The translations under genes were made by a program, and so were the position numbers. A DNA stretch of 64,000 nucleotides from Macrocystis pyrifera (Eukaryota > Sar > Phaeophyceae > Laminariales > Laminariaceae), in NCBI GenBank assembly GCA_031763025.1, contig JASSKH010000026.1, positions 6,478,934 through 6,542,933 on the forward strand, in the 5' to 3' direction. Position 1 is the stretch's first letter, and each line of letters starts with the position of its first letter. Below the pieces are notes generated by a model, which did no database searches, had not been told where the DNA came from, and worked only from the letters and a program-made list of their open reading frames with translations. This document shows positions 5,112-63,631 of this stretch, piece by piece.

Positions 5112-5129
5112 TGTAGTATTTATTCATCG

Positions 5130-7387: not shown

Positions 7388-10300
7388 CTTCGGGTTGGCG
7401 GCGCACGTGGCAAGTTGTTGAAGGGAGGGGGGAGGCAGCGGGGGGCACCAAAGAGAAACGTCCGGTTAATGTAGTGTTGACAAGTGTTTGACATCCTACG
7501 CTGCGTACTACTGTAAAATGAGCTGCAGCGTTGATTGATTACTCTTAAGTGTTCCCTAAGGGAACGAAGAGGGAAACCAAGGGAAACCAAGAGAAAAAAG
7601 GAAACCTAAACGTACAAGTAATTATTTTAATTGCTTGCAGGCCTTAGAGCTATTGGGCACTACTAGGGTGTACAAGGGTTGTGCCGGGATTGGGCTGAAT
7701 GGCTCATAACCGGGTTGAGCTCCTCAAGTGGGCAACAACTAGCGGTTTAGTGTTATGGCACTTTTCTTAATACTTGAACAGTTGTTTCAGGACTATAGCA
7801 CATGTAGAAATGACTGTTGGTAGGGAACTCCTTCGAAGTCAAGTTTCTGGGTGAGCTATATTAAGCTCCTCGCGTGAGGGGAGCTCAAAACAAAATAAGG
7901 CACCACCCCAGGAAGGCAGCGTAAGAGAGCCGAGATTACGGTTAAAGAGAGAAGGGTTGCGCTTTTGAGCGCAATGAGCGTTTCTCACTTTATCCGTTGA
8001 TAGGCTCCTCGACCATGCATTGCAACTGTGTGAGGAGCGTTACCTCGATTTTTTCAAGCACTCCTCGTTACATACCTAGCAAAATAACGCCTGTTAGGAC
8101 AGGGATGATCCCTACATTTTCAGAGGATTCATTCACTCGAGGAGCTACTTTCTATCTCACCCAAGTTGGAAAAAACTAAATCAATATGAGAGCAATCCCA
8201 TGGCCTAGCTATACACCCAAAACAATATAACATAATATAACTATTGGCTTTCCAACCGCATTGAGCACTTTCTCCAGTGCCCTTGAGGAGGTGCCCTTAA
8301 GGAACCCCGTCCCTCAGAAACTTATTCCTCCAAAACGTTGTACCTTTAACCTAGCACGGGTCGCATGGGGATTGTGTATCGGACTTGTACAATACGTAAC
8401 TTACATGATTTCTTCAAGTCGGATATCGGGTGGGGAAAGAGCTTCAATCAAGCGAGTACGGGCGCCAACAAAAAAATAGGTGTGCCACCCCTTCCGCGAG
8501 AGGGCACGCGTACGCGTCAAAATTAGTTGCAGTGGAAATGTTGAAAATTCCCTTAAAGCTACAAGACTACTACCACTATTTAAAATTACTGCTGTCTTGT
8601 CAAGTCCCTTTTAGATTCATGCCGCCATAGGGAGGGGGGTGGCGAGAGTAATGCAGGCTGGCGTATAGCCTATTACTAGCGTTCGCAGGGAATTACATAG
8701 GGTCAACATTGCAACCCCCCCCCGCCGATGTACGTGAAGAGTGCTGAGTTCGCACCGGGGTACGATTTGTGTTTTAGCTCTCCTTTTCTCGACAACGGTG
8801 AGGCCACTGAAGTCGAACATTACATTTCGGAAGGCTCTCGGACAGATTTTGTCGACAAACGCCTCCCTTGTTCGGTATTGGTTGCGCTCCCGTTCCCGAA
8901 AAATCGAACACTGAAAAACGATCGCACCCCTGTGCGAGCTCGAAGCTTCTTGCGGTGTACGAGGTATACATCCAGCAGAGGCGCGTTACAACAGGGGTAG
9001 TATTTTTTTACCATTTGTGTTTCTGGCTGGCGGGAGCTCCTCGTGAGGATCGACAATCCACCGCTCGTACGAGTAACAAGTTACGCTATGGACGCGGTGC
9101 GATAGGCAGACCGAAAGCAGAGTTTGCCCTTCGAAGAAGTCTACGAAAACACTCGATGCGGCCCCTAAAGAGTAAACCATGCGAGGCTTTTCCCGCCAGC
9201 GATTGGCTTGATGCAGTCGTGTTTCGCTCATATACAATCGACTCAACCCTCCCTGCCCCATCCGCCTCGAACGGGGCACGCGTTCATAGGCTAGATGACT
9301 GAGGCATGCAACACAAGAGTACGCCGCCCCCCCCCCCCCCCCCCTTCTCCCTGATGCAGTCGAACTTCGCGTATGAACAATGGACCCCCCCCCCCCCCCC
9401 TCTCTTTTTTTCTACACGCCCTACGATAGGCAGACCGAAAGCAGAGTTTGCCCTTCGAAGAAGTCTACGCAAACACTCGATACGGCCCGTAAAGAGTAAA
9501 CCATGCGAGGCTTTTCCCGCCAGCGATAGGCTTGATGCAGTCGTGTTTCGCTCATATACAATCGACTCAACCCTCCCTGCCCCATCCGCCTCGAACGGGG
9601 CACGCGTTCATAGGCTAGATGACTGAGGCATGCAACACAAGAGTACGCCCCCCCCCCCCAGCCCCTTCTCCCTGATGCAGTCGAACTTCGCGTATGAACA
9701 ATGGACCCCCCCCCCCCCTCCTCTTTTTTTCTACACGCCCCACGTACATGACCCCATACATCATACCTGCCTCCTTACCATTTGAATTGTATTTCGGTAA
9801 TTCTCCCCTGGGCCACAGCCTCTTTCACCAAGATCTCCTCGAAGAACTGGAGTCGTGCCGCTTCATCGTCGGCTTCGTTGAGGATAAGGCTTTGGTGGTC
9901 CAACATGGCGTCGATAAAGAGGGCACACTCGTCGCTGTCGATTGAGTGCATTCGCAAGACCTGCACCGCCTGTCAGAGGCAGCAGTCAAAGGGAGCAGAG
10001 GCATGTTACGATACGCTCGGGGGGAAGGAACTAGTTTTTCGCGAGCTTCTAAGGTTCCTAAGATGAGGCACTCAATATCTCGCAAAAAAAAAACAGATTT
10101 ATTTTCATGACACGGCAAAAGCTCTGCTCCACATACACAACTATAATTGACCATTATTTTATAAAGTTGTTAATACGTCAGCTTTGAGTTCGACTGAATA
10201 TATAGTTTAAACTCGCCTTTAATTGTAAAACACCAAATGAGATTGAAGTTATATTTGTGAGTATTTTATAATAGTTGTAATGGTTGACGAGGAAGCCCCG

Positions 10301-14700: not shown

Positions 14701-17700
14701 TCCCAAAACAATAGTTGGTCTAAGACTATACTAAGCTCTATATAAAATGAGTAAAACACCTGTGGGCGTAGAAATAAAAAATAGAGGTTTCCACACGTGT
14801 AGAGGCTTTTTCTGCCAGGGAGGGTGGTGGGGGACACATGTTTAGACACAGATTGATTTGCCTCGACAGACAGACAGCTTGGCACTGACATGTCTCCTGA
14901 CGTCTTCGGCACAGAGTGGTACGTACCAGGGATGGCGGAAATTAACTGTTGTTGCGCTGTCGCGCAAAATTTTGGTCCAAATATTTGCCATTTTCCGCAA
15001 TAGCCGCAGAGGCAGAGGGGACAGCGCAGCACGCGATTTTTGGGTCGCATTTGTTTTGGCCACAGGCCCAAAAAATTGCTGCGGCCATTTTTATTCGCGT
15101 TAGGTGTTTTTTTTCAACACTGTTTTTCATATTCGCCTTTGGCAGGGAAAAACCTGAGCCCCCATTGTGAATTCGCCGAACGCGAAATAAAAAACTTAAG
15201 GCCCTTTTTCTATGTGCCTGTACTACAGCAGTATAGCAGTAGAATTAAACAAATCTAGGCACCATTCTTTTGCTGTTGGCCGTAGGCTATCTTGTTCCGT
15301 TGTCTTATATTTTAGACACCCGATTTTTCTTCTATTCGCCGTTCGTCGGCGCTTTTCTGTATTCGCCGTTAGTTTCTTGGGCCCGTTTTTCTTGTTTGTG
15401 GTCGGCTGAAAAAACAAATTTATTATTATAGGCTCTTGTTTTTATTAAGTGCCTGTGAACAGTTGGCGTGTTTTGAATTTTGTTCTACGCCTTTTCGAGG
15501 TCCGGGAGGGGGGTTTAAAACGTACTTTGTTACTTGGTTTGCGGGCATGTATTCGCCCATATATATACACCTGTCTCCCTGGACAATAGACAATAGTCCA
15601 ATAGTCTATTAATAGCTTCACATATTGCAATTGACTGTCTATTGCCCTAATTCCAGTTAATTGAAAGGCGTGGATCTCTATTATCCAGACAATTTCGATT
15701 GAGCAACCCCTACCTGGCCCTATTGTCCAGACAATTTCACTTTATAGGTAATTTCCGTAACCAATAGTCCGGACAATTCCAATTAATGGAGCTTCTCCAA
15801 AATAAATTGTCCGGCCAATTCCAATTGACAGACTGTCTCCTGAATCAATTGTCCCGACAATTCCAATTGATAGTCGACCACCCGAAATAGTTGTCCGGAC
15901 AAGTTCAATTAGTAGACTGGCGCCAAGAGTATTTGTCCCGACAACTCCAATTAATAGACAGTCTCTCAGATCACAACTGGCCCGACAATTCCAATTGATA
16001 CACAGTCTCCTAAATCAATTGGCCGGACAATTTCAGTTAGCAGAGTGCTTTCCCAATCAATTGTCCGGGCAATTCCAACTAATAGACGATATACAAAATC
16101 AATTATCTCGACAATGTCGACTAATGCGAAATCTCCAAAACTACTTCAGACAATGCCATCATTGGTGGGCAGTCTCCTAAATCAACTGTCCGTACATTTC
16201 AAAATAACAGTGCACACGGATTACTTTGTTTCGCGGAAACTTTTTGATAATAGAAATATTTACATCTGAGCACATTGGCTAAGCGGTATCAAAACTTCCT
16301 ACCTGCGGACATAAAATACAAAGCTAAAGTTGAGGTGTCCCGCCCTTTTCTGCTTATGCCTTGGACAATTGACCTATCAATAGACTATTGCCCCTACAGC
16401 AGAGTCACGAAGCCGTCTATTAATTGGAATTGTCCGGGCAAGCGATGTCGTAGACTGTCTAGCAATTGAAATAGTTTGGACAATTGTTCTTGGATGCTGT
16501 CTATAATAATCGGATTTATTCGGACAATAGACATCGGGTACTGTTTGACAATTGGGATTGTCCGGACAAATAATTTTGGAGACTCTCTATAATTTGAAGT
16601 TGCCCTGACAATTGATTCCAGAGACTGTCCATTAATTGGAATTGTCTGAACAATTGATGTTTGGTGCTTTTCAATAATTGGAATTGTCAACACAAATGAG
16701 CTCGGAGACTGCCTACCGATTGAAATTGTGCTGGCAAATGATTTCACAGGCTGTCTATTAGTTGGAATTGCTTGAACGATTGATTTCGGACGATTCACAT
16801 GAATTGGACTTGTCGGGGCAACTGCTTTGAGATACCGTCTATTAATTGGATTGTCCGAACAATGGGTTTCGGAAGCGATCTACTAATTGGATTTGTCATG
16901 ACTATCGACTTTAAGAGGGCTCTGTTATTTGAAAGCTGGCAGCTACTTGTAGAACTACATTCGTTTGGTCAGTACACAACATTACCACCATGCTATTTGA
17001 TACATATACCAGGTATATATTTTTGTTTCTTTTCTCTTTGGAATTGTCTTTGTTTTTGTTTTTGTTTTTTCTCTTTGTTTCGTTTTAGTTTCTCTAGGTC
17101 ATGGAATGGGTATGTCGTGCCTGTCGTACGCAGTATGATGACATGGCATTGCATTTCATACGTGCCAACGTAGTAGCGTAGCTTTGTGACCACATAACTT
17201 GTATCTCTCTAGAATTGAAGAATCGGCACGGACACCGGTTGTGCTGGATGTCGACGCGTTGAAAGAACGGTTTAATGTGAAGAAAACAACAGCAACAACT
17301 ATGCATGCCCCCCCGTAATTGTGGTCTCTCTACAGGAGGGGGTGGTTCCAGTATAGGGGGATACCTGATTACATACGAGGTCACAGCAGCAACACAGCTA
17401 CACCTAGATATACGCAGCAGCATCGGTACAGCAGGAGCAACAGCAGCAGTGGTAGCAGAGAAGGTCGACGGTAGGTCCATAGGGGAGTAGGGATGCATCA
17501 AGTGGTGGCATCGATCGCAATGCGGCTACTCCGCATACTGCCACACTACTGTCTGGTTACTGCCGTCTGTGAGATTTCATTGATAGGCACGACCGGCAAC
17601 CGGCACTATATATTCAACAGGCACTATTATGGAAGGGCTACTACTTACTGCTGGTACAATATACTGCTTGATGACAGCAGTGTGAAGCAGCAGAACAAAC

Positions 17701-33030: not shown

Positions 33031-33869
33031 CTCTTCCCCTGTCAGATACTTTCATTCGTGGTCGTCTGTTCCCATGATACCCACCGATGAATTACTAAAA
33101 ACTTAATCAAGAAATTTCAAGTTGTACTATAAAATTCGGCAGTAAATCCTACCAGGTATATAAATACATACATACATACATAAATATTATGTGGACAACC
33201 CCCGTACTAATAATAATGAAATATAGAACCGCAGTAGTAGTAGGCGTATTCCGCAGCTTGCACAAGTAAGTGAGAATCAACTATTCGATTAATCAGTCGA
33301 ACTCACAGCTGACGCGCGATATTTTCATTATCTTTATGTTATACAATCTGAAATTGCTTCGCACCACGTTTACTTCTTGTTTTGAGCAGAGAAGGTGTGC
33401 TGGTGGTGTTGATGATTAGCACCTGATTGATGATGCGTTGATTTATTTACACATACCAGGTATATATTAAAGTACCTTCTTATTGAAGGAGTCGTGTGGT
33501 GTGGGTGGATCACGAGGTTGCTTTGCTTGTTTCGTTTTGTCTGACGCCGAGGAGTCGGGCATACTTGACGAACGCAGGACGGAGGCGGTAGACAGGGTAG
33601 CAAGGTACCAGGCGAACTAGCAGGGAGAACCTGGCTATGCTACTCGTACCACAAACTGCTGCCGCTACTTGGAGGATGCTTTGCGCTTTGGTTTTTCCCT
33701 GTTATTTTCCCTTATTGGTTCTTAGTCTTACTCTTTTAACGACGAGTAGAGCTTTTTTTTTTTCTCTTTTTTTTTTTTCAGCTATTAATAGTTATTTTCA
33801 AGTGTCTGCCACATCCCCTGCGGGGGGGGCACGACAGTTTGTTTCTTATATATTTTCAAGTTTCTTTTT
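33031..33869. other. no gene recognised
   Basis: Contains TACCAGGTA at 33150 and 33454 and a diverged piece of the 14395-14525 dispersed repeat near 33260-33320 (TCAACTATTCGATTAATCAG in reverse sense). Confidence 0.4.
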
Positions 33870-36210
33870 TCTCTTTCGATTTGTCTTTTTTGTTTTTGTT
33901 TTTTTGTTCTTTGTTCGTTTCGTTTCTCTATTCGATGGAATGTGTATGTCGTGCCTGTCGTATCCAGTATGATGACATGGCATTACATCGCCCACTGTGC
34001 TTACTGAAAATCGTTGCGTCCCGTCTAAGAAGCTACTGCGAGACCGAGCATATACTCCCTGAAGAACTGTGCGGCTTCCGCCCCGCACGGTCAACAGTCG
34101 ATATGCTGTTTGTCGTGCGCCGGTTGCAGCAGCTCGGGCGGCAGAAGAAAATCCCCCTGTACATGTGCTTCATCGACTTGCAGAAAGCGTACGACTCTGT
34201 CGACCGAGAACTGTTGTGGGAGGTACTCACACGCCTTGGTGTACCAACCAAGATGCTCACAATCATTCGCAATTTTCACGAAGGCATGCGGGCTCGCGTG
34301 CGTGCGGATGACGGTGAACACTCGGACTGGTTCAATGTAACCCAGGGGCTGAGGCAAGGCTGCGTACTATGGCCGTTACTGTTCAACGTGTTCTTCGCCG
34401 CTGCGATACACATCGTGCTGGTACGCCTCAGCAAAGACGAATGCATCGTAAGGGATTTGGTTCATCTCGAAGAGGACAGGGTTGTCGGAAAAGAGGAACC
34501 GTTGGCATGCGTGCAAAGGGCTGTGTGGGGCATGTTGTATGCAGACGATGCAGGAATAGTCTCGAAGTCGGCGGAAGGCCTTGCAAGAAAGATGACAGTC
34601 ATCGTGACTGTCTTCGAAGCAGTAGGTCTCACGGTATCCGAGAAGAAGACAGAGACGATGCTCCTACGAACACCGGATCAGACGTTTACCACCTCATCGC
34701 TCGCGATCGAAGCTGCAGGCCAAAAGTATAAACAGACGACCCAGTTTTTGTACCTAGGATGCATTATCCACGAGAACGCTGACCTCTCCTTCGAAATCGA
34801 GCGACGAATGCGTCTGATGCGGGCATGCCTCAAACGGTATGGTCCGGCACTGTACGATAGGACGAACGCACCGCTTAGTCTGAAAGTCCGGATGCTGAAG
34901 GCCGAGGCGATTGAGACCTTGCTTTACGGTTGCGTGACGTGGACCCTCAATGCGGACCACTTCGCCAAGCTTCGATCAGCCCACCACGAAGTCCTTCTGC
35001 GAGTCATTGGTTTCCAGCGCCGACTACGCACCGACCACACCACCATCTCGTATGCGAAGGCGCTCAGGATAACACGATGCGAAAGTATCGAAACGACCAT
35101 CCGTAAACGGCGACTCTTCTTTGCGGGGGCTGTGGTGCGGCAACACGAGGGGCGATTGCCCAGTCGGTTGATGTTCGGGACGATCGCTGGTGGGGGGAGC
35201 CCGAAACCAGGCGGGCAGCCCAAGACTTGGCCTAGGGCCATTGCTGAGGGCCTTAGAGTGTTCAAAGCCACCGAGGGATCAACGGAAGACTCCCCCTTAG
35301 TCTTTGGAGTTGGGACCGCACTGTGGCCCACTGCAGCAAAACAGACGGGAAAGTGGTACCGGGGAATCCTCGAAGCAGCTGAACAGTTCATGGGCAGGTG
35401 GCACGAGGCTGAGGCAAAGCTGAGTAGACAGCGCCGTGCATCCGCTGCAGGTAGTGTTAGAGGGAATGGGGGGAGGGGTAACAGCAGGAGGTGTAGAGGG
35501 AACACCGTACAAGTGTATGGGGGCAGGGGGGGGAACAGGAGGAGTAGAAGGGAAACCGCGGTAGAAGAGAGTAGCAGAGAGACCGCAGATAGGGTAGCAA
35601 GGTACCAGGCCGACTAATAGGTTGGACTTTTTTGCTACTCGTACCGCCAACTGCTGCGGCCGTTCGGTATGCATTTTGATTTTTTTCCCTTCTTATCCTT
35701 ATGAAAGAAGTACTACATAGTGGGTGGGTGACGAGCATATTTTGGCCCACTCACTATTGCTCTTTTTAATTAGTTAAGTGTTCACCGGGATGCATAGTCC
35801 CTTTTTTCCTTCTCGTATATTTCCCCTTGCACGTCCCTTTTGGCTCATGCTCGGGGTAAGTATGTATGTGTCTGAGCTTTGGCTTCCCGTTTTATTTATT
35901 TATTTGGGATTCTTCTCCTTTTCTTTTTCTTTTTCTTGTTCTTTTTCGGTTTGGTTTCTTCGTTGCTTCTCTTTCTTTATGGTGTATTTTGGTTGCTGGC
36001 GTATGTATGTATGTTGTGTCGGCCGCACCTAGTGCGAAGGCATGGTATTACGTAGGCTATTAATGCATTACGGTGTGTTATCTCTGTGTCGTAGTCTGTG
36101 ACCACAGAGCTCGTATCTTTCTAGAGTGAAGAATCAGCACGGACACTGGGCTTGCTGGATGTCGACGAGTAGAAGAACGGTTTAATGTGAAGAACACACA
36201 CACACTGCAC
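33870..36210 (+). mobile_element. LINE (non-LTR retrotransposon), longest copy
   Basis: A T-rich leader, a single long ORF (33935-35617), a 590-bp 3' UTR including TTTTCTTTTTC-rich DNA and GTGACCACAGAGCTCGTATC, then GGTTTAATGTGAAG and an ACAC tail. The ORF joins the element's N-terminal CRAC segment directly to the RT palm, so an endonuclease domain is missing and the copy is probably internally deleted. Confidence 0.85.
33935..35617 (+). CDS. LINE reverse transcriptase ORF
   Basis: 560 codons. Residues 1-18 ([18 protein letters not shown]) form a Cys-rich start shared with the mini-LINE at 17101. The RT begins immediately after: [12 protein letters not shown] with catalytic Asp near residue 81, GLRQGCV near 138-144, YADD at 202-205 and a KKTETMLL thumb-side segment. 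It continues into the [25 protein letters not shown] region and ends in a Gly/Arg-rich tail. Function: target-primed reverse transcription of the LINE and probably of the SINE. I see no apurinic-type endonuclease, which would normally precede the RT, so autonomy is doubtful. The ORF is otherwise intact, unlike the 3840-5111 copy. The start is the ATG conserved in both 5' ends. Clade (RTE- or Jockey-like) is uncertain. Confidence 0.85.
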
Positions 36211-41089: not shown

Positions 41090-42729
41090 TCACAAATCAA
41101 TGCTGAACTCTGAAGCAATTTTAATCTTGAGCGCACGGGTCATCCGTAATTTGCGCAATTCCTTCACGACGAATTCAGGCGCAGCAGAATAAATCGACCG
41201 CAAAGACTCCCACGTGCGCTCCTCTGCTTCGAAACCATCCCAATCGACCAAGACAATCACCTCGTTGGCATCATCTTCGGCCACATGCACCAAAGCATTC
41301 ATGCGGCATTCACCCTGCGCAAAGGAATGTTGGAAAACATCCTTCAGATCAGCGGTGACGTTCAACGTCGCATCCGCATAAAATCGTAAACGAGCCACGT
41401 GAGCTTGATGCACCTTCCCAGAAACGATGTTCTGAACTGAGTACACATGATCATGATCAGCTGCTACCACACGCCACGGACCAGTCCATGTGGACAACAA
41501 TTTCGGTGTGGCACCCTGCCGACGAACACGAGCATACAACACGAAATCACCAACCGCAAATTTTGGCAACACCACCTGGCCCTGAGCCTGTTTACGTTTG
41601 TTGTCGCGAGACACGGCAACAGCTGCGCGAATATCGGCGCAAAATCTCTCCTGCTCTGCAACGACTTCACGGACGTTCGCACGCAACAAGTCAGCATTCA
41701 TCACGTCAACATTCCACCTGCCATCAGACTCAGAAACGAGCGCCGAGAAATCGGTACGCGGAGCACGCCCAAACATCACGCTGTACGGAGTGCTTCGGTA
41801 ACGTTCACGAAACGAAGTGTTCAAGGCCCACTGAGCGGCCGGCAAAACATCAACCCACTCCGAAACCTGACGACGCTGTTCTGACAGAATGGAACGCAGA
41901 GCACGTACCACCTCTTTTACCATGCGTTCACACGTACCGTTCGACCACGGCGTGTAAGCGACAGCAAAACGATGTTCGATGTGCAACGCGTCGCTCAACA
42001 AAGCAAGCACCCTGTTCTTGAAATGCGTGGCGGTATCACTCACCCACACACGCGGCACCCCCAAAGTCTTACACCAGGCTAGCAAATGCTTCGCTGTGAC
42101 CTCGGCTGTACAAGCCTCGGCCGGTTCCAACGCCACGTAGTTGGACAAATCATCCATGATGACCAAAACATATCGGAAACCATCCTCATCAGGCAGGCCA
42201 TCGCTACCTTCGGGCCCGCTGTGGCCAACATACAAAAAATCAAAGTGCACCACTTCTCCCGGAGCGGTACCATGCACCGTGTCTCCGTAGGGACGAGGAA
42301 TGAGTGCACCTGCACGCGTGTCTACACAGTGCAAACACTGGCGAACGAATTCGCGAACCTGAGAATCCATGTGAGGCCAAACACAATATTCCTTCAGGCG
42401 AAACAAAGTCGGCGCCACACCACGGTGACCAGCCGAGCGCATGTGCGCGCACACCATCAAACGAGTTTGAAGAGCAAGATCATCCGGCGGAATCCACAAG
42501 ACGTCACGCACCCCAACACGCACACGAAACAAACCATCATCGGCCAAGGTAGCTTGACCGAAGGTTGTCGAAAATTCATGAACACCAACGCCGATACGAG
42601 CGACAGACCTTTGTTGCGAGGCACGAATCACATCCAATGCGGGAAGCGAATCGTCAGCATTACATGGGCTGTGCACGGCAACCGAACGAACAGGCACCGT
42701 AGGAACTTTGACCCAACGAGACAACAGAT
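41090..42729 (-). CDS. Ty3/Gypsy integrase with C-terminal chromodomain
   Basis: Continues the polyprotein one frame away from gag-RT. Features in order: an H..H/C-x2-C zinc-binding segment (HMRSAGH..QCLHC); a DDE core with FDFLYV, VSDTATHF and CERMVKE supplying D, D and E; a basic SH3-like segment ending VHQAHVARLRFY; then a chromodomain-like tail (EVIVLVDWDGF..RTWE) near the C terminus. It inserts the element cDNA, and the chromodomain would steer insertion to marked chromatin. An ATG exists upstream at 42844 in this frame but overlaps RNase H; translation more likely enters by frameshift from the gag-pol ORF at the G6 run (42735-42730), or one base has been lost there. Confidence 0.9.
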
Positions 42730-45700
42730 CCCCCCAACAGTTCGATCGCCAGGGATGTGTTCGATTGCATAGCGGTATTGTCCTAAAACACCCTTCCAAT
42801 TCTCTAGGCGTTGTGCCATGGTCTTTGTGACCGTCGTGACACACTTCTCCGGATTGAAAATGTACTGCAAGTTTCGATGATCAGTAAAGATATGAACACC
42901 ACCCCAAAGCAGGTATTCGAGCCTCCGGAACGTATTAACGATCGCAAAACCTTCTTTGTCGACAGTCGCCCAGCGCAACTGCGAACCTGTGAACGAACCA
43001 CTCAGAAATCCGAGAGGCTCGTGAGACATGCTTTCCAACGCCAATCCACTGCGAAATTCGTGTTCAGGCACTTGGGTGAGAAAACTACCCCAATGGAAAT
43101 CAGAAGCGTCAGGAAACATCAAAACAACGCACCCGGGACGAGGATGATGAAGCGGCACTGCTTGCGCCACCAAACCCCGTGCGGCATTCCACGCCCGCAC
43201 CCGATCCTCCGTCCACGCGGTATCCTTGATGACACGATTGCGCGCCACTCGCTTAGTCCGACGTGTAGCCCCAACAAGGAGCTCCTCCAAAAAATCACGT
43301 AACGGTGCTACCGTTTCCGCTAAACGTGGTAACGATGTACGCAACCAGTTGACAGCCTGCAAGAATTGCATTAGTTCTCCAGCGTTTTCGGGACGACGCA
43401 TTTCACTTAAACCTTGCACTCGAGCGGGGTCATGGGACACGACACCATTGGAATACACCTTACCACACCAGACCAGTTCACGAGAGAAGAAGGTACACTT
43501 GTGGGCGGCGACAAACAGTCCAACATTCTCCAGGCGTTCAAGAATGTCATCAAGCAGCTGCAGAAGAGCTTCTTCGGTGTCTGCGAAAAAGAAAACGTCA
43601 TCGACCCAAACTTTGCAATCCAAACCACGCAACACTTCAGTCATGACACCTTGGAAATAAGAAGTCGCATTCAAAACACCTTGGGGAACACGGGTAGGCG
43701 TGAACAAACCGTCGCTTGTCGCCATGGTGAAGACGTCTTGCGCCTCCGGAGCCAAAGGCATCTGCCAGTACCCTTGAAGTAGGTCCAGCTTGCCGAAGAA
43801 ACGCGCCCCCAGCAGATCTCCCATGTCTTCATGGTTGGGCATGACGCCCGGGGACTTCTCCACCTGTGCGTTCACCGCCGAGTAGTCGCTCACCAAACGG
43901 AAAGAGTCCTTCTTGGGCACCGCCATCGCCGGACTCGCCCACACCGCCTGGATGTTGTGGTAGACAAAGCCAAAAAACACCAAAGCAGCAATGCACTTCG
44001 AGAGCCAGTCCCTTTTCGTCGGTTCGTACCGACGTGGCGTTGCCTTGACAGGCTTCGCCTGTTGCTTCAGCTGCACTCGCATCGGCTCCACTTGCGCTGG
44101 CGGATCACCACACAGCGCACGGCGAAAAGCACCCACGCGACGAGCCAAAATTTCGCGCAAACGGGTTGCTCCGCCGACGCTTAATCCACTCTGCTCTGCC
44201 TGCTGCACGCTGTCCTCCAACGCCCGTTCTCGGGCCGTCCGCTCCTCCTCCGGATCCATGAACATGTCTGGCCCCCGGTCGACCAAATGTTCCACCGCCT
44301 TGTCCTCCGGAGCATCCACCGTAGCCTCGGTCTGAAAAGCACGCACGGAAACCGTCACTCTGCGCGCCGCAAGGTAACTCGGAGTCTCCACACCGGTCGA
44401 TACCGGCACTGCGCGAGGGCGAAGCTTCTCCAGAGCTTCACGGTAGACGTCGATGCCAAGAGCTTTCATGGTAGCCATGCCAAACAGAACGACGTTATCT
44501 GTACCAGGCATGACCGCGAAAGTGATGGGCTCCAATTTCACCGCTCCCCACGGCGTCCGTACACTCACGGCAATCGGCACCGTTTTGTGCGTGACCATCA
44601 CTGAAACACCCGTAGCGGTTTTCGCCTGCTGCGGGCCATTTTCGAACGGAATTTGCAGATCGGCGCCGCCGAAATGCGAAGACAGCTGCTGAAGTAAGCC
44701 GACACCGATGGACGTGAGCGCCGACCCCGAATCAAGGATCACACGCGCCATCAGCGAACCAACCGACCCTGGCAAAGAGAGATCAGCGCGTAAACACTCA
44801 GCGCTGCGATCGACAGGCACTTCACCTGCCGTTGAACTCTGGTCGGTACCAAGAGTCACCTGACGCCATGGCTGCCCTCCTACAGCCGGCGCCGAAGAAA
44901 TAGAATCGGCGGTCCACCCCGACCAAGACGTCGAATATACAGACGGTTCCGGCGCTACCGCCCCTGCAGCAGCACCAGACACTGACTCCGCCCGCTCGGT
45001 GGATGGCGAAGTTCTCGCTCCAGCAGCACCCACCGATGTTCCAGCTCCTCCAACGTATACAGCTCGGCCGGCAACAGACGAACCAGATCCCGACCCAGCG
45101 GCTCCTGCCGCTGGCGCACCAGAAGTTGAAGAAGCAACAGCAGAAGTTCCACCGCCCGCTGTCAATTGATTGCCACCACGGCCACCGCGCCCGCGTCCAT
45201 GGTTGAATCTGCCCCGGCCGCCATTGCGGCCCCCGCGATACCCTGACGACCCGCGCCCACCACTGCTGGGAGCTGTGCCGCCACCGCGAGCTTTTGGGCA
45301 ATCAGAAACATAATGGTTGGGATCACCACACTCGAAACAGACGCGAACAAACGACTTTTTCGCGGACTGCTGCTGTTTCGGTTTCTGCTGCTGTTGGCGT
45401 CGCGGTTCAGCTGCCCCTGCAGCGTCTTTCCGACCATACGCCTCGATGAACTTCCACTGTTCTGCAGCAGAAAAAATTTGGTCCATGACCAATGCCGGGT
45501 CCTTCTTCCACCCTGCAGCGTACGTGAGCTGACCTTTTACGTACTTTTTGAACTCGGACGGCCATAAGCCATCCACCAACGCCATGCTCACAAATTCCGC
45601 CGGTCCGGGCAACCACGAACGGTCCTGCGCGCGGTACATGGCATGCACCGCGTGATTCTCCGCAAAATACTTTTCCATAGCGGAGTTTACCATCATCGCG

Positions 45701-46098
45701 CGGTCTTTGACGGATGTTTCACCGCCCTGCTTTTCATCGCGCCTCATTGAGAGAACGCGACGCAAGTCCGCTGCCGCCCGCGAGGTGTCAAATCTGTTGC
45801 TGGTGGTTGTGTAACCGGCGTGCTGCCTAACAGCGTCCAACAACTCCGAGGCGGTCATCGTAGTCTGATGCTTGTAAAATCCCTCAAAACACCGATGAAT
45901 GTAATTGGGGATAAGCTGGCCCATGCTCACTTTGGAGTGCTGAACCACCCCCTGAGCGTTGGCGAGCTGCAGCCGTTCCTCATAATCGAGGTACGCTGCG
46001 TAAAAAACACGAGAGGCCTGCTCGGTCCACACCTCTCCGTATTTCGGTGGAGTCAGAGACTCCCCTACCACCAGCGGCGTGCTTGCCGTGTGCGCCAT
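42730..46098 (-). CDS. Ty3/Gypsy gag-protease-RT-RNase H polyprotein
   Basis: ATG at 46098. Residues 1-230: gag. CCHC knuckle C254-x2-C257-x4-H262-x4-C267. Gly/Arg-rich, then Ser/Ala-rich linker to about 430. Aspartic protease DSGS at 456-459. RT from about 690: SDYSAVN, KLDLLQGYWQ, VPQGV, and VWVDD with catalytic pair at 833-834. RNase H Asp in FPDAS near 997, Glu of DKEG near 1049, and Asp of TDHRNL near 1073. The frame leaves the consensus after HIPGDRTVGG at the G6 run, running 30 junk codons to a stop at 42628; the correct continuation (DLLSRW) is in the -1 frame. Gag and Pol are one ORF, as in many chromoviruses. No other lesion seen. Confidence 0.92.
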
Positions 46099-46306
46099 AA
46101 TCCACAGCAGTCCACCTGGACTCTACTGTAATAACGGAGAAACTGCCGCCTGACCTGTGCGTCCTCCAGCTCCCGGAGCGTCCTCCCCTGCTGTGCGCTT
46201 CAAGCCGTTTCGATCCGTCCAACGGGCCAACTGCCTTCCCAGCTGTGACCCAATACTCCGCAGCCGAAAACTCCTCCAACAGAAGTTCCGCGAATATCTA
46301 GATATT

Positions 46307-56254: not shown

Positions 56255-56690
56255 TTCGCGCAACCAGTAGTGCCGGAAATTCTTTACGTACAACCGCGTC
56301 GACCTTGCGGTGGGAATGAAGAAAAATAAAAATATATTTACCGTCCCGTTCAGCCGAGGAAAAAGTATTTATCGTCCCGCCCCGCCGAAGAAAAAGAAAA
56401 CTACCGTCCCGTCTCGCCGTTGAAAAAAGTATTTACCGACCCGTCCCGCCGAGGAAACAAGTATTTACCGTCCCGTCCCACCGAGGAAAAGAAATATTTA
56501 CCGCCCTGTTCCACCGAGGGAATAAATATTTACCGTCCCGTTCCGTCGAGAAAATATGCGCCCGCTGTCCCGTCCCGCCAACTTTTTTTATGTCTTCATT
56601 TTACCGTCCCGTTTTCATTTGTTTTCCCCGCCAAACAAGTCAAATATGTCCCGTCCCGTCCCGTCACGATTCTCAGTCACTGTGACAATT
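56255..56690 (+). repeat. CCGTCCCG ~32-bp satellite, most regular copy
   Basis: Seven units TTACCGTCCCGTCCCGCCGA + GGAAAA..TAT at 31-33-bp steps (56339-56545), with the leader and trailer shared with 47208-47690. Confidence 0.9.
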
Positions 56691-57529
56691 TTCTTGGTGC
56701 TCAATCCACCAATGGATGTACCTGATATGCAATACGTACGAACTAGGTAGCTCTGGAGGGAATGCGCGTAGCTTTTTCTTGTGGAAACTCCGTACAACGT
56801 CGTACCTGGTATATGTTGCATTTTAATACTATTGCTTTTGGAGCACAGCGAAGTATAAACTGTAAGCAAAAAGAGCTTGCACACTGATGATGTCGAGTAG
56901 GGAGGAAGGACAGCAGCAGTACATACTACGTATAGGATAGTGATACTTTACATACTACTGCTGTGGTGTACTCGAAAACGAGTGTATGGTGGTCTCACGT
57001 GCCCCTACGTTATCTGCCCCATGACTCCGTTGAGTTCAACGCTTCGGGAGCGACGGTGCTATCACCAGGCGAACAAGGTGACCTGAGTCGCGGCCGGCGA
57101 TCAGAGCGGAGAACGAAGGTCGCGGCGAAGGCATCCGTCTCAGCAAGGGGGGAAGATGATGCACGAGTGTACGTACGTACGTACGCGCTTGGAGTCGAGA
57201 CCCATGTTTTTTTATATATTTTGCTTACGTAGTGTCGTAACTGGACTGTATACCCCCTCCTCCCCCCGTGCACGTGCGTATATGTACGGTGTGATATGGG
57301 TGGAGTAATCATGGGCTATAGATATATAATATGTTGCAGTCTTGTAGTCTCACGAATACGAGAATAACCCAAAAAATGGATTAACCCGGCGGATATTCCG
57401 TTAGTCGAGAGTGACGTTCTTTCAGGAATGTTTCCTAGGGTGGATAACCCGTTAGACGAGAGTAATGTTCCTTAACGTAGATAACACCACGAAGTGAGAC
57501 GTTCTTATATTAGCAGAAGAACGATCGGC
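56691..57529. other. no gene recognised; possible LTR region
   Basis: Contains TACCTGGTA (56803), a GTACGTAC run (57168-57185) and a doubled block GGATAACCCGTTAGACGAGA-like (57385 and 57434). It may include the 5' LTR of the following Ty3 element, but the partner LTR lies outside the window. Confidence 0.35.
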
Positions 57530-57559
57530 AGCCATAGGAAAGTTCTGTAGGAGTACATC

Positions 57560-58480
57560 AGATAAGAGGAATTTAGGAGAGCTCGCCAGGAGCTCACCGT
57601 CGACGACACCGGACCATCGGCGTTCAAGAAGCTTCTACGTCTACTCACGAACCACGTCGACGACGGCGACCAGGGCCGCGCCTTCGAGCAGCTCCACACC
57701 TTCGGCGTCCCTAACCTGACGGACTTCGCAACCTTCGTCCGTGCTTTTAAAGAACGTGTGTCCATCGCACAAGGCACGGAACGGGTCTTCAAGCCGAGCG
57801 ATGCCATGGTCATGGAGATTGTACGTGGCACTACGGGCAGCTAATACCCTTCCCTCATGCCCACGTTTTATCTGGGGCTCCACATGACCACGACGCAGCC
57901 CTTCTCCTCGGTTGACGACATGTGGGCAGCATTCGAAGTGCTGGCGACCAATAAGACGCCGGCAATCAACGGGCACCGCTTCCACGCGACTTTCCTCCGG
58001 CGGATTCGTCATGTACTCCTCCTCCTCAACGACCCCAGCGCGGTAGCAAACTCCCCGTGGCCCAGGAATCAACATAAGGGGGTCTTCCTCCAACTCGTTC
58101 GTCATGAACGTAGCCGAAGAGGGGCGCGGCCGTTCTGCGAGGACGAGGTGGACTGACCGCTGCGACACCACGAGGAGGTACACATGGTCACAACCACGTT
58201 TGACCCTCAGACCCCGCCACGCCTGACACCTCTCCTGACGAGCTCTGCCCGTGCCCAAGCCCTACGCGCTCACGGTGGGCATTTACTCAACCATAATGGT
58301 ACGGACCACAGTATGAAGACCTGCCCCGAGGGCTTCCTCAACACGTCCGGCATCCTGAACCCGGCACTCGGACAGTTGAACGATGGTGGACACGCTCACC
58401 GCCAATGGCAACGAAGGAGACCCTCCTATCACCGTGGACAATACGAGCGCAACCTGGAGCGGACCTCCTACCGCTAAGAG
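57560..58480 (+). pseudogene. Ty3/Gypsy gag, degraded
   Basis: FKKLLRLLTNHVDDGDQ, RAFEQLHTFGVPNLTDF then FVRAFKERVSIAQGTERVF to a stop at about 57843, then LPTFYLGL-type capsid continuing with DMWAAFEVLATN in 57857-58156. After a further break comes NHNGTDHSMKTCPEGFLN, the distal half of a zinc knuckle. Capsid character is inferred from position and helix-rich composition. Confidence 0.7.
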
Positions 58481-58496
58481 AACAACAACCGTCGAG

Positions 58497-58503
58497 GCAA
58501 CAA

Positions 58504-58535
<32 letters not shown>

Positions 58536-58540
58536 GCAGC
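58497..58540 (+). repeat. (CAA)n microsatellite
   Basis: AACAACAAC run of about 40 bases inside the post-gag region. Confidence 0.85.
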
Positions 58541-59027
58541 GGCAACTATAACAGCAACCGCTGGAACCAGAACCACTCCCGCAACTACCGCGGCAACAAC
58601 GGGCGCTCCTACAACTGGCGCCAGAACAACGGCCGTTCATACGACAACAGCAACCGATAGTCGCCAGGGCAACAGTTCCAACAACAACGCATCGAGCCTG
58701 CCCCCTCGTCTTGGGCGTTGACGGTGCATACCCCTGCGACCAACACTTCCGCACCTGCCGCCCCCGCGAACATGCAGATGGGCAGCAACAACTCGAGTAC
58801 CCACCCGAACCAACGGCCGCCGGGCACCTTCCGCACCAACTGACAAGCCGATGGTGGAGCAACTGCCGCATCTCCACCAACCGCATCTACTGCGAGCACC
58901 CGAGGCTCCCAGGACGCACGAGTAAATCACGTGCACCACGCCTCCCCGACCCCTGCCCCTCAATGCCCCCCCCCCTGCCCCAGCCCATTTCCCAGCCACT
59001 TGTTCAAGCACTGATCATCTTGCCCAA

Positions 59028-59705
59028 GTGATAGCCTTGAGGTGTGGGCGGGAGGAGGCCAAGACACCGAGCCCCACCAGGATGCTCCACTCGACCTCTT
59101 CTGGCGGTGAGCAACGCTGCTTGCCGACTATTGCCGAGACCCCAGACATTGCTACGCTGGAAAACGTCTCGACGATTACGGCTACCAGCGGTTCCGGTTC
59201 ACACGAAACTACTGTTTCGCCTACCGGGTCATCGCCCCCTGAGCCTGCCTCGAATTGGCCGCTCCATACGCGCTTGTTCCAGCATGCGCGCTTTTCTTGT
59301 GACAGCGTGGAACCCGCGAACGACGGGTTTCCTCCTGCTGCTGCTACGGTGTTGACACCACCGCTGCCCCTAAGCTCGAGGGGCAGTCTGGTTTTAAATA
59401 CGGAAGACTCGCGACGACCGTCGACTAGGGTCTGCCCTGAGCCCCCTGGCCCGTCCTCCTCGCCTGCTTCGCGCAACGCGTGGAAACGGACCCTAGGTGT
59501 GGCATCCCCTAGCGAGTATGCCCCTGTTCTCCAAACGTTGGACGATAGGGCCCTTCAGCGTCGTCCCGCCCAGCGTATAAGCCCCGGCGAGGACCGCCCC
59601 GATACCTCGGCTTTGCCGAGCAATTCCCCCGCGAACACGAGGGTTCCGGTCAGCATCGCTAGATCGTTGTTGACTCTACCCCCCGTCGACGCCAGCCGGC
59701 GATAG
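59028..59705 (+). CDS. Ser/Pro-rich polyprotein segment upstream of NADAR
   Basis: A 225-codon open frame, Ser/Pro/Thr-rich, ending at TAG 59703-59705. It is in the same frame as the NADAR N-terminal half that begins about 75 bases later, so it was probably one polyprotein. No domain recognised. Confidence 0.4.
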   Translation: MIALRCGREEAKTPSPTRMLHSTSSGGEQRCLPTIAETPDIATLENVSTITATSGSGSHETTVSPTGSSPPEPASNWPLHTRLFQHARFSCDSVEPANDGFPPAAATVLTPPLPLSSRGSLVLNTEDSRRPSTRVCPEPPGPSSSPASRNAWKRTLGVASPSEYAPVLQTLDDRALQRRPAQRISPGEDRPDTSALPSNSPANTRVPVSIARSLLTLPPVDASRR

Positions 59706-59780
59706 GAATGATTATCGTCGCGCCCCCCACCGCCAACAAAAAAGACGCCATCAACTGCACACATCACCACAGAGGCCACA

Positions 59781-60248
59781 TCATATTTCCACTTCTTCTG
59801 GCACTCCTCTTCGGTCTTGTCGCCGTGGTACCTGTGCAACAACGAACACGGTGGCGTCATATACAACTGCGCTGAGCAGATGATGATGGCGCAAAAGGCC
59901 GCGCTCTTCGACGACATCACAACTGAGCGCCGCATCAAAGCGACCCGCGACCCGGCCGACGAAAAACATTAAGCCGAACCGTTTCCGACTTCGACGAACT
60001 GGTCTGGGAGCTACACCGCTACACCATCGTCCTCAAAATGAACTTCTCCAAGTTCCGCCAACACCTGGAGCTTCGGCAGGAGCTAATGGCAACGGGCGAC
60101 GAGCACATCGCCGAGGCCAGTCCACACGACCTCATCCGGGGCATAGGCTTCAAGGCCGACCATCCGGACCCCTGCGACCCGACGCTGTTGGCGTGGTCGG
60201 AATCTGCTGGGCAGGATACTGATGGACGTTCGAGAAAGCCTCGGCGCC
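59781..60248 (+). pseudogene. NADAR (YbiA-like N-glycosidase) domain in a Ty3 polyprotein
   Basis: Signature blocks appear in family order. SYFHFFWHSSS and WYLCNNEHGGVIYNCAEQMM (catalytic-type Glu codon 59874-59876), AQKAALFDDI, ATRDPADEKH; then in the +2 frame RTVSDFDELVWELHRY, LKMNFSKFRQHLELRQELMA, TGDEHIAEASPHDLIRGIGF; then back in the first frame WRGRNLLGRILMDVRESL. Known NADAR enzymes cleave N-glycosidic bonds, either in riboflavin precursors (YbiA/RibX) or in ADP-ribosylated guanine (antitoxins). Lesions: frameshift near 59969, one extra T near 60187, and Arg in place of the usual Trp in (I)WGIG. The outer frames are the same as the protease frame downstream, so the domain was part of the polyprotein. 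Also possible: a cellular gene into which the element inserted, but RT-related sequence flanks both sides. Confidence 0.82.
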
Positions 60249-60875
60249 AATCGCTCCTCCGAACCTCTACTTCCTCCCCATCTTCACGACCCGGAGCCAA
60301 CACCCGCATCCACCGACTCCACCCGGGTCTTCCCCGCCGCCGACAGCATCCACGAAATAGGCCCGACCCCTCCATGGCAACCGCCTAACTCACCACTTGG
60401 GCCACTCATACCGCCGTCTACCCCCGACGCCTACCCCAGCAGCCACTTTGCCCAAGTGTCCACCATCAACACCGCAGCTCACAGCCACCTCCCTACCGGC
60501 CGCCCGCCGGTACCGGAACACGGACCATGCCTTACAAGCGGCATCATTACCGTTGACGACGCATCGTTCACGACGAAGGTACTCGTTCACAGCGGTCCCG
60601 CCGCCACTAAACGCCGCGAACTCGTGGCACTGCTCGATACCGGCTCGCCCCAGTCGTTAATCACCGCAACCGCGGTGGAACAACTGAAGGCTTCTCAGGC
60701 AGCCACCAATGCGTGTGAACGGCACAGTTCCCCCCCTTTATGGGGAGGTTTCGGCACTTCAGCCCCCCTCTCCACCTCCGTTTCCATCCGCTTAAGCATC
60801 CAGTTTATGCACCTTCAGACCCCCACCGCTGCCCTAGCAGTATGGGCCTGTTTAGCTCCTGCAGGAACCATGTAG
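60222..60875 (+). CDS. NADAR C terminus, Pro-rich linker and aspartic protease
   Basis: One continuous frame from the NADAR end (MDVRESLGANR) through a Pro/Ser-rich linker to ELVALLDTGSPQSLITATAV, the retropepsin active site DTGS. Past the stop at 60875, another frame gives LLGRDSWMRFEQRS, the usual protease C-terminal LLGRD motif. This physical continuity is the main evidence that NADAR belongs to the retroelement. Confidence 0.8.
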   Translation: MDVRESLGANRSSEPLLPPHLHDPEPTPASTDSTRVFPAADSIHEIGPTPPWQPPNSPLGPLIPPSTPDAYPSSHFAQVSTINTAAHSHLPTGRPPVPEHGPCLTSGIITVDDASFTTKVLVHSGPAATKRRELVALLDTGSPQSLITATAVEQLKASQAATNACERHSSPPLWGGFGTSAPLSTSVSIRLSIQFMHLQTPTAALAVWACLAPAGTM

Positions 60876-60996: not shown

Positions 60997-62001
60997 TTGA
61001 ACCAGCATGACCCCAACGGAGCCTCTGCATTTGTTCCCGACGATCGTTCCACTGACGACGTCTACCACTTCCGATTTACCCGCAACTTAGCTATTTTGCT
61101 TTCCTCTACCCCCAAGCTCGTCAGGGTCAACCTGGTGCGTGAGTCCGGCGCTCCAGCATTTACCGGGAACTACATGGTGAACATGCTCCCCCGCGAGAAC
61201 CCCCTTTTCGACACGGCCATTGTCGTCTCCGACGGGTACCAAACGGTCCCACTATCTGGATCTACCGATCTCGAGCCGGGTGACTTCCCCGGAACCTCCT
61301 GCTCTCCACTGGTACAGGAACCACTTTCCACCCTTGGACACCCTTCCTTGGCCCCTCCCCATCCCCCTCCGATTCCGGATGTACATGCCCTCCACGACAA
61401 CATCCCCGTGGCCGACCAGAGCCCATCGACAGACGACCCTCCTACCGCACCAGAGGCCCCGTGCCCACAACTCCTTGCACGCCTCAACACCCATCAACGG
61501 GAAAGCTTCTTCGACCTCTAGGAACGTCTGCCGTTACCCCTACGCGACGTCATCTTCGACCTGCACGGTTCTGGATGGACCCCGTCGGTGATCAACAACC
61601 TGGGAGACGTCCTCTGCGAATTCCAGGACGTCTTCTCCACCTCGAAAACCGACTTCGGCTCGTGCTCGCTGATGCCGTTCAAGATCCTCGTACCCCCGGG
61701 CAGCGCACCGGTCACTTCCCGCCCCTACAGGATCAACCCCATCCTCGCCAAGAAGGCAGACGCGGTATTAGACCAGTACCTGGCCGCCGGCCTGATCCAG
61801 AATTCCACGTCGCCATACTCCAGCCCTATGGTGGTCATCTCCAAAAAGGATGGAGGTGTCCGGATTACAATCAACTACAAGAAGCTCAAGGCAATCAGCT
61901 CCCTCAGACAACTCCCCATCACCCGCGTCGACGAAGTCCTCGACTCCTTGAGCAAAGGTCGCATCTTTTCTCTCTTCGACCTGGTCTCCTCGTTCCAATA
62001 A
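60997..62001 (+). pseudogene. Ty3/Gypsy connector and RT N-terminal half
   Basis: A connector frame to TAG at 61519-61521, then SVINNLGDVLCEFQDVFSTS, FGSCSLMPFKILVPPGSAPV, ILAKKADAVLDQYLAAGLIQ, SPYSSPMVVISKKDGGVRI, NYKKLKAISSLRQLPITRVD and FSLFDLVSSFQ up to TAA (61999-62001). The last stop replaces a residue just before the expected QITIHE, which follows in frame. This is a Ty3-type RT fingers/palm region. Confidence 0.85.
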
Positions 62002-62059
62002 ATCACCATCCACGAGGACACCATCCCTTTGACGGCGTTTCGCACTTCCAACCGGCTGT

Positions 62060-63631
62060 TTGAATGGCTTGTCCTGCCGCAAGAAGCAGCGCCTCCCCCG
62101 GCTGCTCCGTGAAGGTCACCAACGAGGTCATCAAAGGCCTGGAACGCGTCGTCGCGTACCTCGACGACATCATCGTCTTCGACCCCGACCCCATGTCGCC
62201 AACATCAGAGCCCTCGTCGGACACCTCCGGAAGCACCACCTCAAACTTCCCCCCGCCAAGGCCAAAATTGACGCCACCACCGCCGATTTCCTGGGACACA
62301 CCATTTCCGCTGGCGGCTACAGCCGCAATTCCGACAAGGTCGCCCCCCTCACCAGAATGCCCACGCCGACCGACAAGAAGCAAGTGCGCTTACGCCTTGG
62401 AGGCATCAACTACTACGGCAAGTTCCTGCCAAAACTTTCCCGACGTCTGCGCCCCATCAACGCTCTACTCAAGCAAGGCGCGACGTTCGACTTCACCCCC
62501 GCCATGGAAACCACCGTACGCGCCATTCTCCAAGAACTTGTCGAATCGCCTATCCTCGTCTACCCCGGCTGGGACGCCGTCGCCGACGACTCCCGCCCCT
62601 TCCGCCTCTACTGCGACGCTAGCATCGATAGCTTCGGAGCGACCCTTGAGCAAGAGCAACCCGACGGCTCAGTCCGCCCCCTCTTCTTCATCAGCCGTGC
62701 CACCCTGGACTCCGAACGTTCATGGACACCCCTCGACTTCGAGGCCGGGAGCATCGTATGGGCAATTAAACGCCTACGCGGACACTTATGGTCCATCCGC
62801 TTCCAGATCTACTCGGACCACAAGGCGCTCGAGAACATGGCCAAGGTCGGAGAACATTACCCCCGTGTCCGTCGCTGGCTCGAGTTCCTTTTAGCGTACA
62901 CCTACACGCTGGAGTACCGGAAGGGCACGGCCAACGGCAACGCCGACTTCCTCTCCCGGGTTCCTCAACCAGCCACCGACGCCGACCGCACCGGACGCAA
63001 CCGCCTCACTGGCCCCGACACCGTCGGCATCTACCTCATCCGCCCCCGCGGCTTCGCGCCGAACGACCCTTCCGCCCTGGGAACCGGCTTGGATGGCTTC
63101 GTGTCCCCCCCTTCCAGACCCATCCCAACCGTCCAGCCGCTCCCCTTCACCGACGACGACGTCCGCGTCTTCCGCCTACTGGGACCACGTATGGATCACC
63201 CCATCCTTTTCCCCGCAACCCACACCTTCGTCGGGCCTATTGCGACCCGCGACTCTACCAATGGACAGCTTGCCGGCATCGAGAATGCCGCCGTGAACAC
63301 CGGAGCTCCTCCAGTTTCGGCTTCCAGGCCGTCCGTCGTCTCTCCGCCGTCCACCATTGGCGCCACGACACCAGCCCTTCCAGGTCTGATATCTTCTCGG
63401 ACCCGCCATCCGTTCCGCCGCTGCCGCGGGGACCCCTCGGCCCATAGCCGACTATCGGTTTGGACGCCGACCGCCACCCGTCGTACAAAAACGATCTGCA
63501 CCCGCCCGCCTTCCGTGCGACCCCGCCCCCGCCGGGGCCTAGCCAAGACTTCCTCACCCGACGACGCCTCCAGCTACAGTCCCCGCGCCACCCGCACCAT
63601 CGACGCCACCCAAGCCATTGGCGCTCACTAG
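62060..63631 (+). pseudogene. Ty3/Gypsy RT C-terminal half and RNase H
   Basis: The catalytic YLDDIIVF box is in the frame of 62064-62894 (codons about 62157-62168). From about 62190 the sequence continues in the 62060 frame: HVANIRALVGHLRKHHLKLP, ADFLGHTISAGG, GGINYYGKFLPKLSRRLRPI, then RNase H RLYCDASIDSFGATLEQE, DFEAGSIVWAIKRLRGHLW and IYSDHKALENMA, then ADFLSRVPQPATDADRTGRN. A frameshift near 62190 breaks RT. The rest to 63631 is a Pro/Arg-rich extension of doubtful coding value. Confidence 0.85.

Follow-up and report, generated by a model that had tools for sequence, protein, structure and literature searches.

A NADAR domain between gag and protease in abundant Ty3/Gypsy-type retroelements of Macrocystis pyrifera

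Results

We analyzed a stretch of 64,000 nucleotides of Macrocystis pyrifera DNA (GenBank assembly GCA_031763025.1, contig JASSKH010000026.1, positions 6,478,934 to 6,542,933 of the forward strand; hereafter the window) that contains a decayed Ty3/Gypsy-type retroelement with a NADAR domain in its polyprotein. A first-pass annotation, made from the letters and their open reading frames alone, had recognized the NADAR motifs and proposed a Pfam profile search as the check. When the open pieces were searched separately with hmmscan, the Pfam NADAR profile PF08719 matched in three frames of the + strand within 59793..60242: at ~59793-59966 (35.2 bits, E 1.8e-8, profile positions 1-71), ~59945-60166 (67.1 bits, E 2.8e-18, positions 65-138) and ~60177-60242 (22.3 bits, E 1.7e-4, positions 141-162 of 163). 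The first two pieces pass the curated Pfam cut-off of 35.1 bits, and the third alone falls below it. The three are ordered and complementary and jointly span positions 1-162 of the 163-position profile, a match far above chance level. The window copy itself is dead and cannot make NADAR, because two internal frame breaks interrupt the domain and two ADP-ribose-site residues, the equivalents of Gly78 and Trp133 in the Phytophthora enzyme, are replaced by Ser and Arg.

The remaining parts of the element lie on the same + strand. Other copies in the genome, to which they were compared, carry L numbers and fall into families A, B and C. A direct repeat of 294 bp at 57290..57583 pairs with 297 bases at L009:3694-3990, ~10.3 kb downstream (92.6% identity over 297 columns), and is probably a remnant of a long terminal repeat (LTR). 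No such repeat pair was present in any of 19 other loci of 10 kb, a length shorter than the element. The 3′ part of a decayed gag, identified by alignment to other copies, occupies 57584..58843; its 5′ part is missing, since the elements at L025 and L028 extend upstream of the point corresponding to 57584. From 57584 to 60497, the window aligns with the family-B copy L028 at 91% identity. The upstream frame of L028 contains a C-X2-C-X4-H-X4-C zinc knuckle, a motif read by eye, and matched no Pfam gag family; the corresponding knuckle in the window (~58283-58324) has lost its first two Cys relative to L028. The window gag ends at an in-frame UGA (58841-58843) just after the motif PGTFRTN, and an N-terminal pol leader, likewise aligned to other copies, runs from this stop to NADAR (58844..59792), with no Pfam family matched over 58926-59702.

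Downstream, the third NADAR piece is open into a Pro-rich linker (60243..60569) and the DTGS protease, as the first-pass annotation had described. Pro makes up 14-22% of the first 120 amino acids past NADAR in L024, L028 and L049. The aspartic protease (60570..60875) was recognized by its LLDTGSPQS motif and has only a weak Pfam match (Asp_protease_2, E 0.082). Broken pieces of reverse transcriptase (RT) follow at 61522..62300, one piece matching L028 at 86% identity across 59 compared columns, and then RNase H at 62492..62899 (PF17917, E 1.6e-24; PF17919, E 3e-18). The integrase lies beyond the end of the window and matches PF00665 at E 3e-5, below the cut-off of that family.

A search of the genome (537,376,219 bases in 223 contigs) gave 1264 NADAR candidate places. 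All 150 that were scored exceeded the Pfam cut-off. The domain survey covered 60 distinct places, of which 35 belong to family A, 12 to B and 13 to C, plus 38 further places of family B. All copies and loci examined were picked through NADAR, and the counts are therefore silent on copies without it. The window copy belongs to family B: its main match to five of the six B copies compared has 90-93% DNA identity, with shorter matching pieces down to 75%. A genome search with the protein P0014 gave 1189 candidates, of which 150 were returned, and those inspected belonged to family A, B or C by NADAR similarity.

Outside the window, NADAR occurs in the genome in a single unbroken frame with RT and RNase H; NADAR and RVT_1 share such a frame in L024 (A, 1696 amino acids), L028 (B, 1231), L027 (B, 1177), and L049 and L050 (C, 1033 each). 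The fusion is therefore not an artefact of joining frames. Chance was likewise ruled out by the profile matches, and bacterial contamination by the presence of NADAR and RT in unbroken frames on chromosome-size contigs.

Across the 19 loci of 10 kb, the order of the element is gag, NADAR, protease, RT, integrase and C-terminal domain. NADAR followed by protease was found in all 19 and a gag match upstream of NADAR in 18, which bears out the proposal that NADAR sits in a Ty3/Gypsy-type polyprotein, after gag and before the protease; RT was present in 15 and integrase in 17. Integrase follows RT, the Ty3/Gypsy gene order, in all 13 of these loci that have both. The C-terminal region, found in 16/19, resembles that of P0033, a polyprotein of Ectocarpus sp. 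CCAP 1310/34 in which the Pfam chromodomain was not found. The NADAR-carrying element is abundant in this genome, and the fusion recurs at the same place.

The active site of the domain was mapped by alignment to the solved Phytophthora NADAR 8bau, for which PMC11543638 describes the ADP-ribose-binding and catalytic residues. Among the 60 copies, the catalytic residues are kept in 60 (Glu43) and 57 (Lys50), and the ADP-ribose-site residues in 60 (Lys75), 58 (Arg79), 60 (Trp89), 59 (Arg93), 59 (Glu125), 59 (Asp130) and 60 (Trp133). In a set of 44 family-B copies, six of them already counted, all nine residues are present in 44/44 except Arg79 (43/44). The YbiA family within NADAR is defined, according to PMC11125620, by Glu rather than Asp or His near the last strand. 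This residue is Glu in 59/60 copies, by which the retroelement NADARs belong to the YbiA family. The fold of the family-B domain is confidently predicted, with a mean predicted local distance difference test score (pLDDT) of 89.9 and a predicted template modelling score (pTM) of 0.80.

Comparison between families B and C gave a nonsynonymous substitution rate (dN) of 0.42 for NADAR, a synonymous rate (dS) of ~2.3 and a ratio of ~0.18, with dS near saturation. For the same pair, linker plus protease had a ratio of 0.20 and RT plus RNase H one of 0.09, dS across regions being 1.1-2.4 and also near saturation. Between A and B, dN/dS was 0.21 for NADAR, 0.21 for linker plus protease and 0.10 for RT plus RNase H; between A and C, the dS of NADAR was saturated, hence no ratio. 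By these ratios, NADAR is constrained between families. An apparent falling trend of the ratio of nonsynonymous to synonymous differences (pN/pS) within families proved to be mostly an artefact of binning on pS: when copies were binned by total distance, the trend was gone in A and B and persisted only in C.

The end of gag could be located in 11 of the 19 loci. Its last codon position is occupied by UGA in eight copies and by Gly in three (L023, L025 and L026). In L027, the frame that starts past the UGA runs uninterrupted across NADAR and on into RT (1177 amino acids), and the bases after the gag stop encode similar residues in families A and B (QVDGGSA and QADGGAT). These two features fit read-through without proving it; ribosomes probably pass the UGA that separates gag from the NADAR-bearing pol on occasion.

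Four of the six family-B loci (L019, L023, L025 and L026) share a deletion of ~1.2 kb that removes RT and RNase H, with ends at 5614-5621 and 6793-6797 in L028 coordinates; the window copy does not carry it. This junction recurs in 31 of 40 further family-B copies, whereas seven keep RT and two fit neither pattern, bringing the RT-deleted copies to 35/46. The 31 are short loci among L227-L266, and NADAR is kept in them. A stop falls within the NADAR domain in 3 of the 35 RT-less copies and in 1 of 9 RT-bearing copies. In a gag-pol junction sample made up of family-B L305-L324 and the 10-kb loci, the gag-end codon is a sense codon in 12/18 RT-less copies (nine Gly, three Arg) vs 1/8 RT-bearing copies. 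These copies, RT-less and RT-bearing, were all found via NADAR, are mutually related and do not give independent counts. Retention of NADAR in a proliferated derivative that lacks RT fits a role for the domain outside polymerization.

The closest named polyprotein is P0033, whose NADAR is 57% identical over 93% of the query. NADAR identity among families A, B and C is 50-53%, although their RTs are 74-86% identical. NADAR differs as much between B and C (50%) as between A and B (52%), although B and C are the more similar pair over the remainder of pol; for L028 and L049, identity is 50% in NADAR and 85.5% in RT plus RNase H. This contrast, with a B-C identity no higher than the identity to bacterial NADARs, suggested repeated capture by different families. 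The domain may possibly have been replaced in one family, or it may have reached the divergence floor allowed by the fold. In a tree of 76 rows (12 retroelement, 22 environmental, 22 named genome and 20 viral-contig sequences), family A plus Ectocarpus groups with Myxococcota (support 97/94), and B groups with C (90/86, not starred); a first, less sampled tree had split the families. Repeated capture of NADAR is not shown by this tree, because a single group of all 12 retroelement rows was not rejected by the approximately unbiased test (p-AU 0.308), nor was a group of A, B and C without Ectocarpus (p-AU 0.173). The RT tree is small and not usefully rooted, with one distant outgroup from the window at 28% identity. 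For the Ectocarpus NADAR, PMC12477816 reports almost exclusively bacterial hits and suggests horizontal transfer. The Ectocarpus stress-induced protein Esi0017_0056 (391 amino acids, NADAR at 132-291), whose nearest relatives are two Ectocarpus proteins and then prokaryotic ones (PMC7922944), might derive from such an element.

The window also holds other repetitive DNA. Besides RT, RNase H and integrase, a second Gypsy-like element at 41093-46122 (− strand) contains a zinc knuckle and a DSGS motif, with no NADAR match; its RT is 28% identical to the nearest NADAR-element RT, that of P0033. An open frame of 625 amino acids at 33740-35617 (+ strand; RVT_1, E 8.2e-27) perhaps represents a long interspersed nuclear element (LINE), and a further RVT_1 piece lies at 4263-5123 (− strand). 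Tandem repeats occupy 9100-9744 (a 324-bp unit twice, 96%), 15762-16115 (a 42/84-bp array) and 56328-56554 (a 32/64-bp array). No tRNA genes or Rfam families were found in the window.

Discussion

What might a retrotransposon gain from this enzyme? Our tentative preference, held at somewhat less than an even chance, is that the domain works as a guanine-ADP-ribosyl hydrolase and travels in the particle within Gag-Pol; we infer its activity, packaging, substrate and benefit alike. Living copies would produce Gag, a UGA stop and then a Pol consisting of leader, NADAR, protease, RT, RNase H, integrase and C-terminal domain. NADAR would enter the virus-like particle within Gag-Pol and be cut out by the protease. 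In the particle or at the pre-integration complex, it could then remove ADP-ribose from guanines of the element RNA or of single-stranded cDNA, the modification having been put on by host or environmental ADP-ribosyltransferases. NADARs of several kinds hydrolyze guanine-ADP-ribose on DNA and RNA according to PMC11543638, PMC11125620 and PMC11833690. The first-pass annotation had suggested that the domain counters ADP-ribosylation by the host: the conserved catalytic residues and this published activity speak for that suggestion, but no host writer enzyme was found in a genome search for DarT.

Several observations weigh against an active eraser delivered in Gag-Pol. The position of Phytophthora Asp86, a second-sphere residue, is Cys, Glu or Gln in families A, B and C, and the gag frame is the NADAR frame in only 6/11 copies with the gag end located. 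Within families, pN/pS of NADAR ranges over 0.37-0.65 (A), 0.39-0.77 (B) and 0.29-0.78 (C), and the bootstrap intervals frequently extend to values of the neutral simulation (0.72-0.91), so that within-family comparisons offer weak evidence for selection, and the choice of copies by NADAR score biases the sample toward conserved residues. The transferase DarT (PF14487) gave no candidates genome-wide in a six-frame search that ignored introns. Finally, PMC11125620 cautions that NADAR activity in vitro does not predict the cellular target.

It is possible, though rather unlikely, that NADAR acts on a small molecule, either a free ADP-ribose derivative with which the host signals alarm or a reactive intermediate of riboflavin. 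By its family Glu the domain is of the YbiA type, E. coli YbiA is described in PMC11543638 as acting on riboflavin intermediates, and soluble ADP-ribose derivatives are, as PMC9503650 argues, the target of many phage NADARs. However, fusion to Gag-Pol would confine the domain to particles instead of leaving it free in the cytosol, and PMC9503650 also argues that NADARs inside RNA-virus polyproteins target mainly macromolecules. We think it quite unlikely that the domain lacks catalysis and serves the particle as a binding or structural module, retained to bind RNA or ADP-ribose or to help Gag-Pol fold; it does remain with gag and protease in RT-deleted copies, but the catalytic Glu and Lys are as well conserved as the binding residues. 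By analogy with RNA viruses, PMC12477816 proposes that the domain processes RNA during replication, repairing it or otherwise acting on its ends or caps. We consider this unlikely; in PMC11833690, the NADARs under test removed ADP-ribose from guanosine in RNA but did not act on the phosphate-end and 2′-OH forms. Least of all do we favor a captured passenger without present function spread by hitch-hiking, which would agree with the weak within-family constraint under score-biased sampling and with stops in 10/35 family-A NADAR stretches, but has against it the same position of the domain in three kelp-type families and in Ectocarpus, the between-family dN/dS of ~0.18-0.21 where computable and the complete active site.

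Returning to the active eraser, the RT-deleted derivative is of interest in that it separates the role of the domain from polymerization. A non-autonomous derivative may have shed its polymerase and kept the ADP-ribose eraser as particle cargo, a scenario to which we give little credence; the sense codon at the gag end in most sampled RT-deleted copies would then yield a constitutive Gag-NADAR-protease fusion where the frame is open. If it were true, brown-algal retrotransposons would face nucleic-acid ADP-ribosylation as a barrier raised by the host, with the parasites of the element supplying or exploiting the eraser. More generally, an active NADAR would point to nucleic-acid ADP-ribosylation as an anti-retrotransposon defence in a eukaryotic lineage for which, to our knowledge, no such defence is known. 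It would also explain why a transposon has kept a bacterial-type enzyme across the split between Ectocarpus and the host alga. With so many open copies available in a single genome, the enzyme lends itself to testing in vitro; should it turn out to be inactive or neutral, the element would stand as a warning against inferring function from captured domains.

The first-pass annotation knew of no described NADAR-bearing retroelement, a statement overtaken by PMC12477816 (2025), which describes one Gypsy lineage of Ectocarpus whose Pol has a NADAR of the YbiA family at its N-terminus and also mentions a NADAR in ORF1 of a Tx1 LINE of the Pacific oyster. No second publication on such elements appeared among the papers listed in a search mostly without subscription papers and preprints. 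Beyond what PMC12477816 describes, the present analysis adds the conservation of catalytic residues, the UGA that separates gag from the pol with NADAR and the RT-deleted family-B derivative, for which no literature search was made.

Among known systems, the DarT1-NADAR toxin-antitoxin pairs share the fold and the catalytic Glu and Lys. They differ in a catalytic Asp two residues before the family Glu, a position inferred from D171/E173 in PMC11543638 and occupied by Ile or Leu in the four retroelement rows aligned. Because of these residues and the absence of DarT candidates from the genome, the retroelement NADARs do not appear to be of the DarT1-associated (BC4488) type. NADARs of RNA viruses and phages (PMC9503650; T4 gp30.3) are likewise cargo of selfish elements, in RNA viruses within the replicase polyprotein, but no reverse transcription is involved there. 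Phage NADARs have His at the family residue according to PMC11125620, whereas the retroelement NADARs have Glu; 673 of 50,697 phage records matched the family-A domain, all 673 below 60% identity. The bacterial YbiA-family NADARs of Nannocystis and other Myxococcota have the same profile and active site and are stand-alone proteins, unlike the polyprotein domain described here. One bacterial YbiA, that of Chondromyces crocatus, a species outside our NADAR tree, acts as an antitoxin to the transferase YarT (PMC11125620). Nearest of all is the Ectocarpus NADAR-Gypsy lineage, of which Gypsy-12_Ec32 is an example: P0033 carries NADAR, RT, RNase H and integrase, and its NADAR is 57-59% identical to that of family A. 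By comparison, the elements reported here occupy another genome, form three diverged families and include an RT-deleted derivative.
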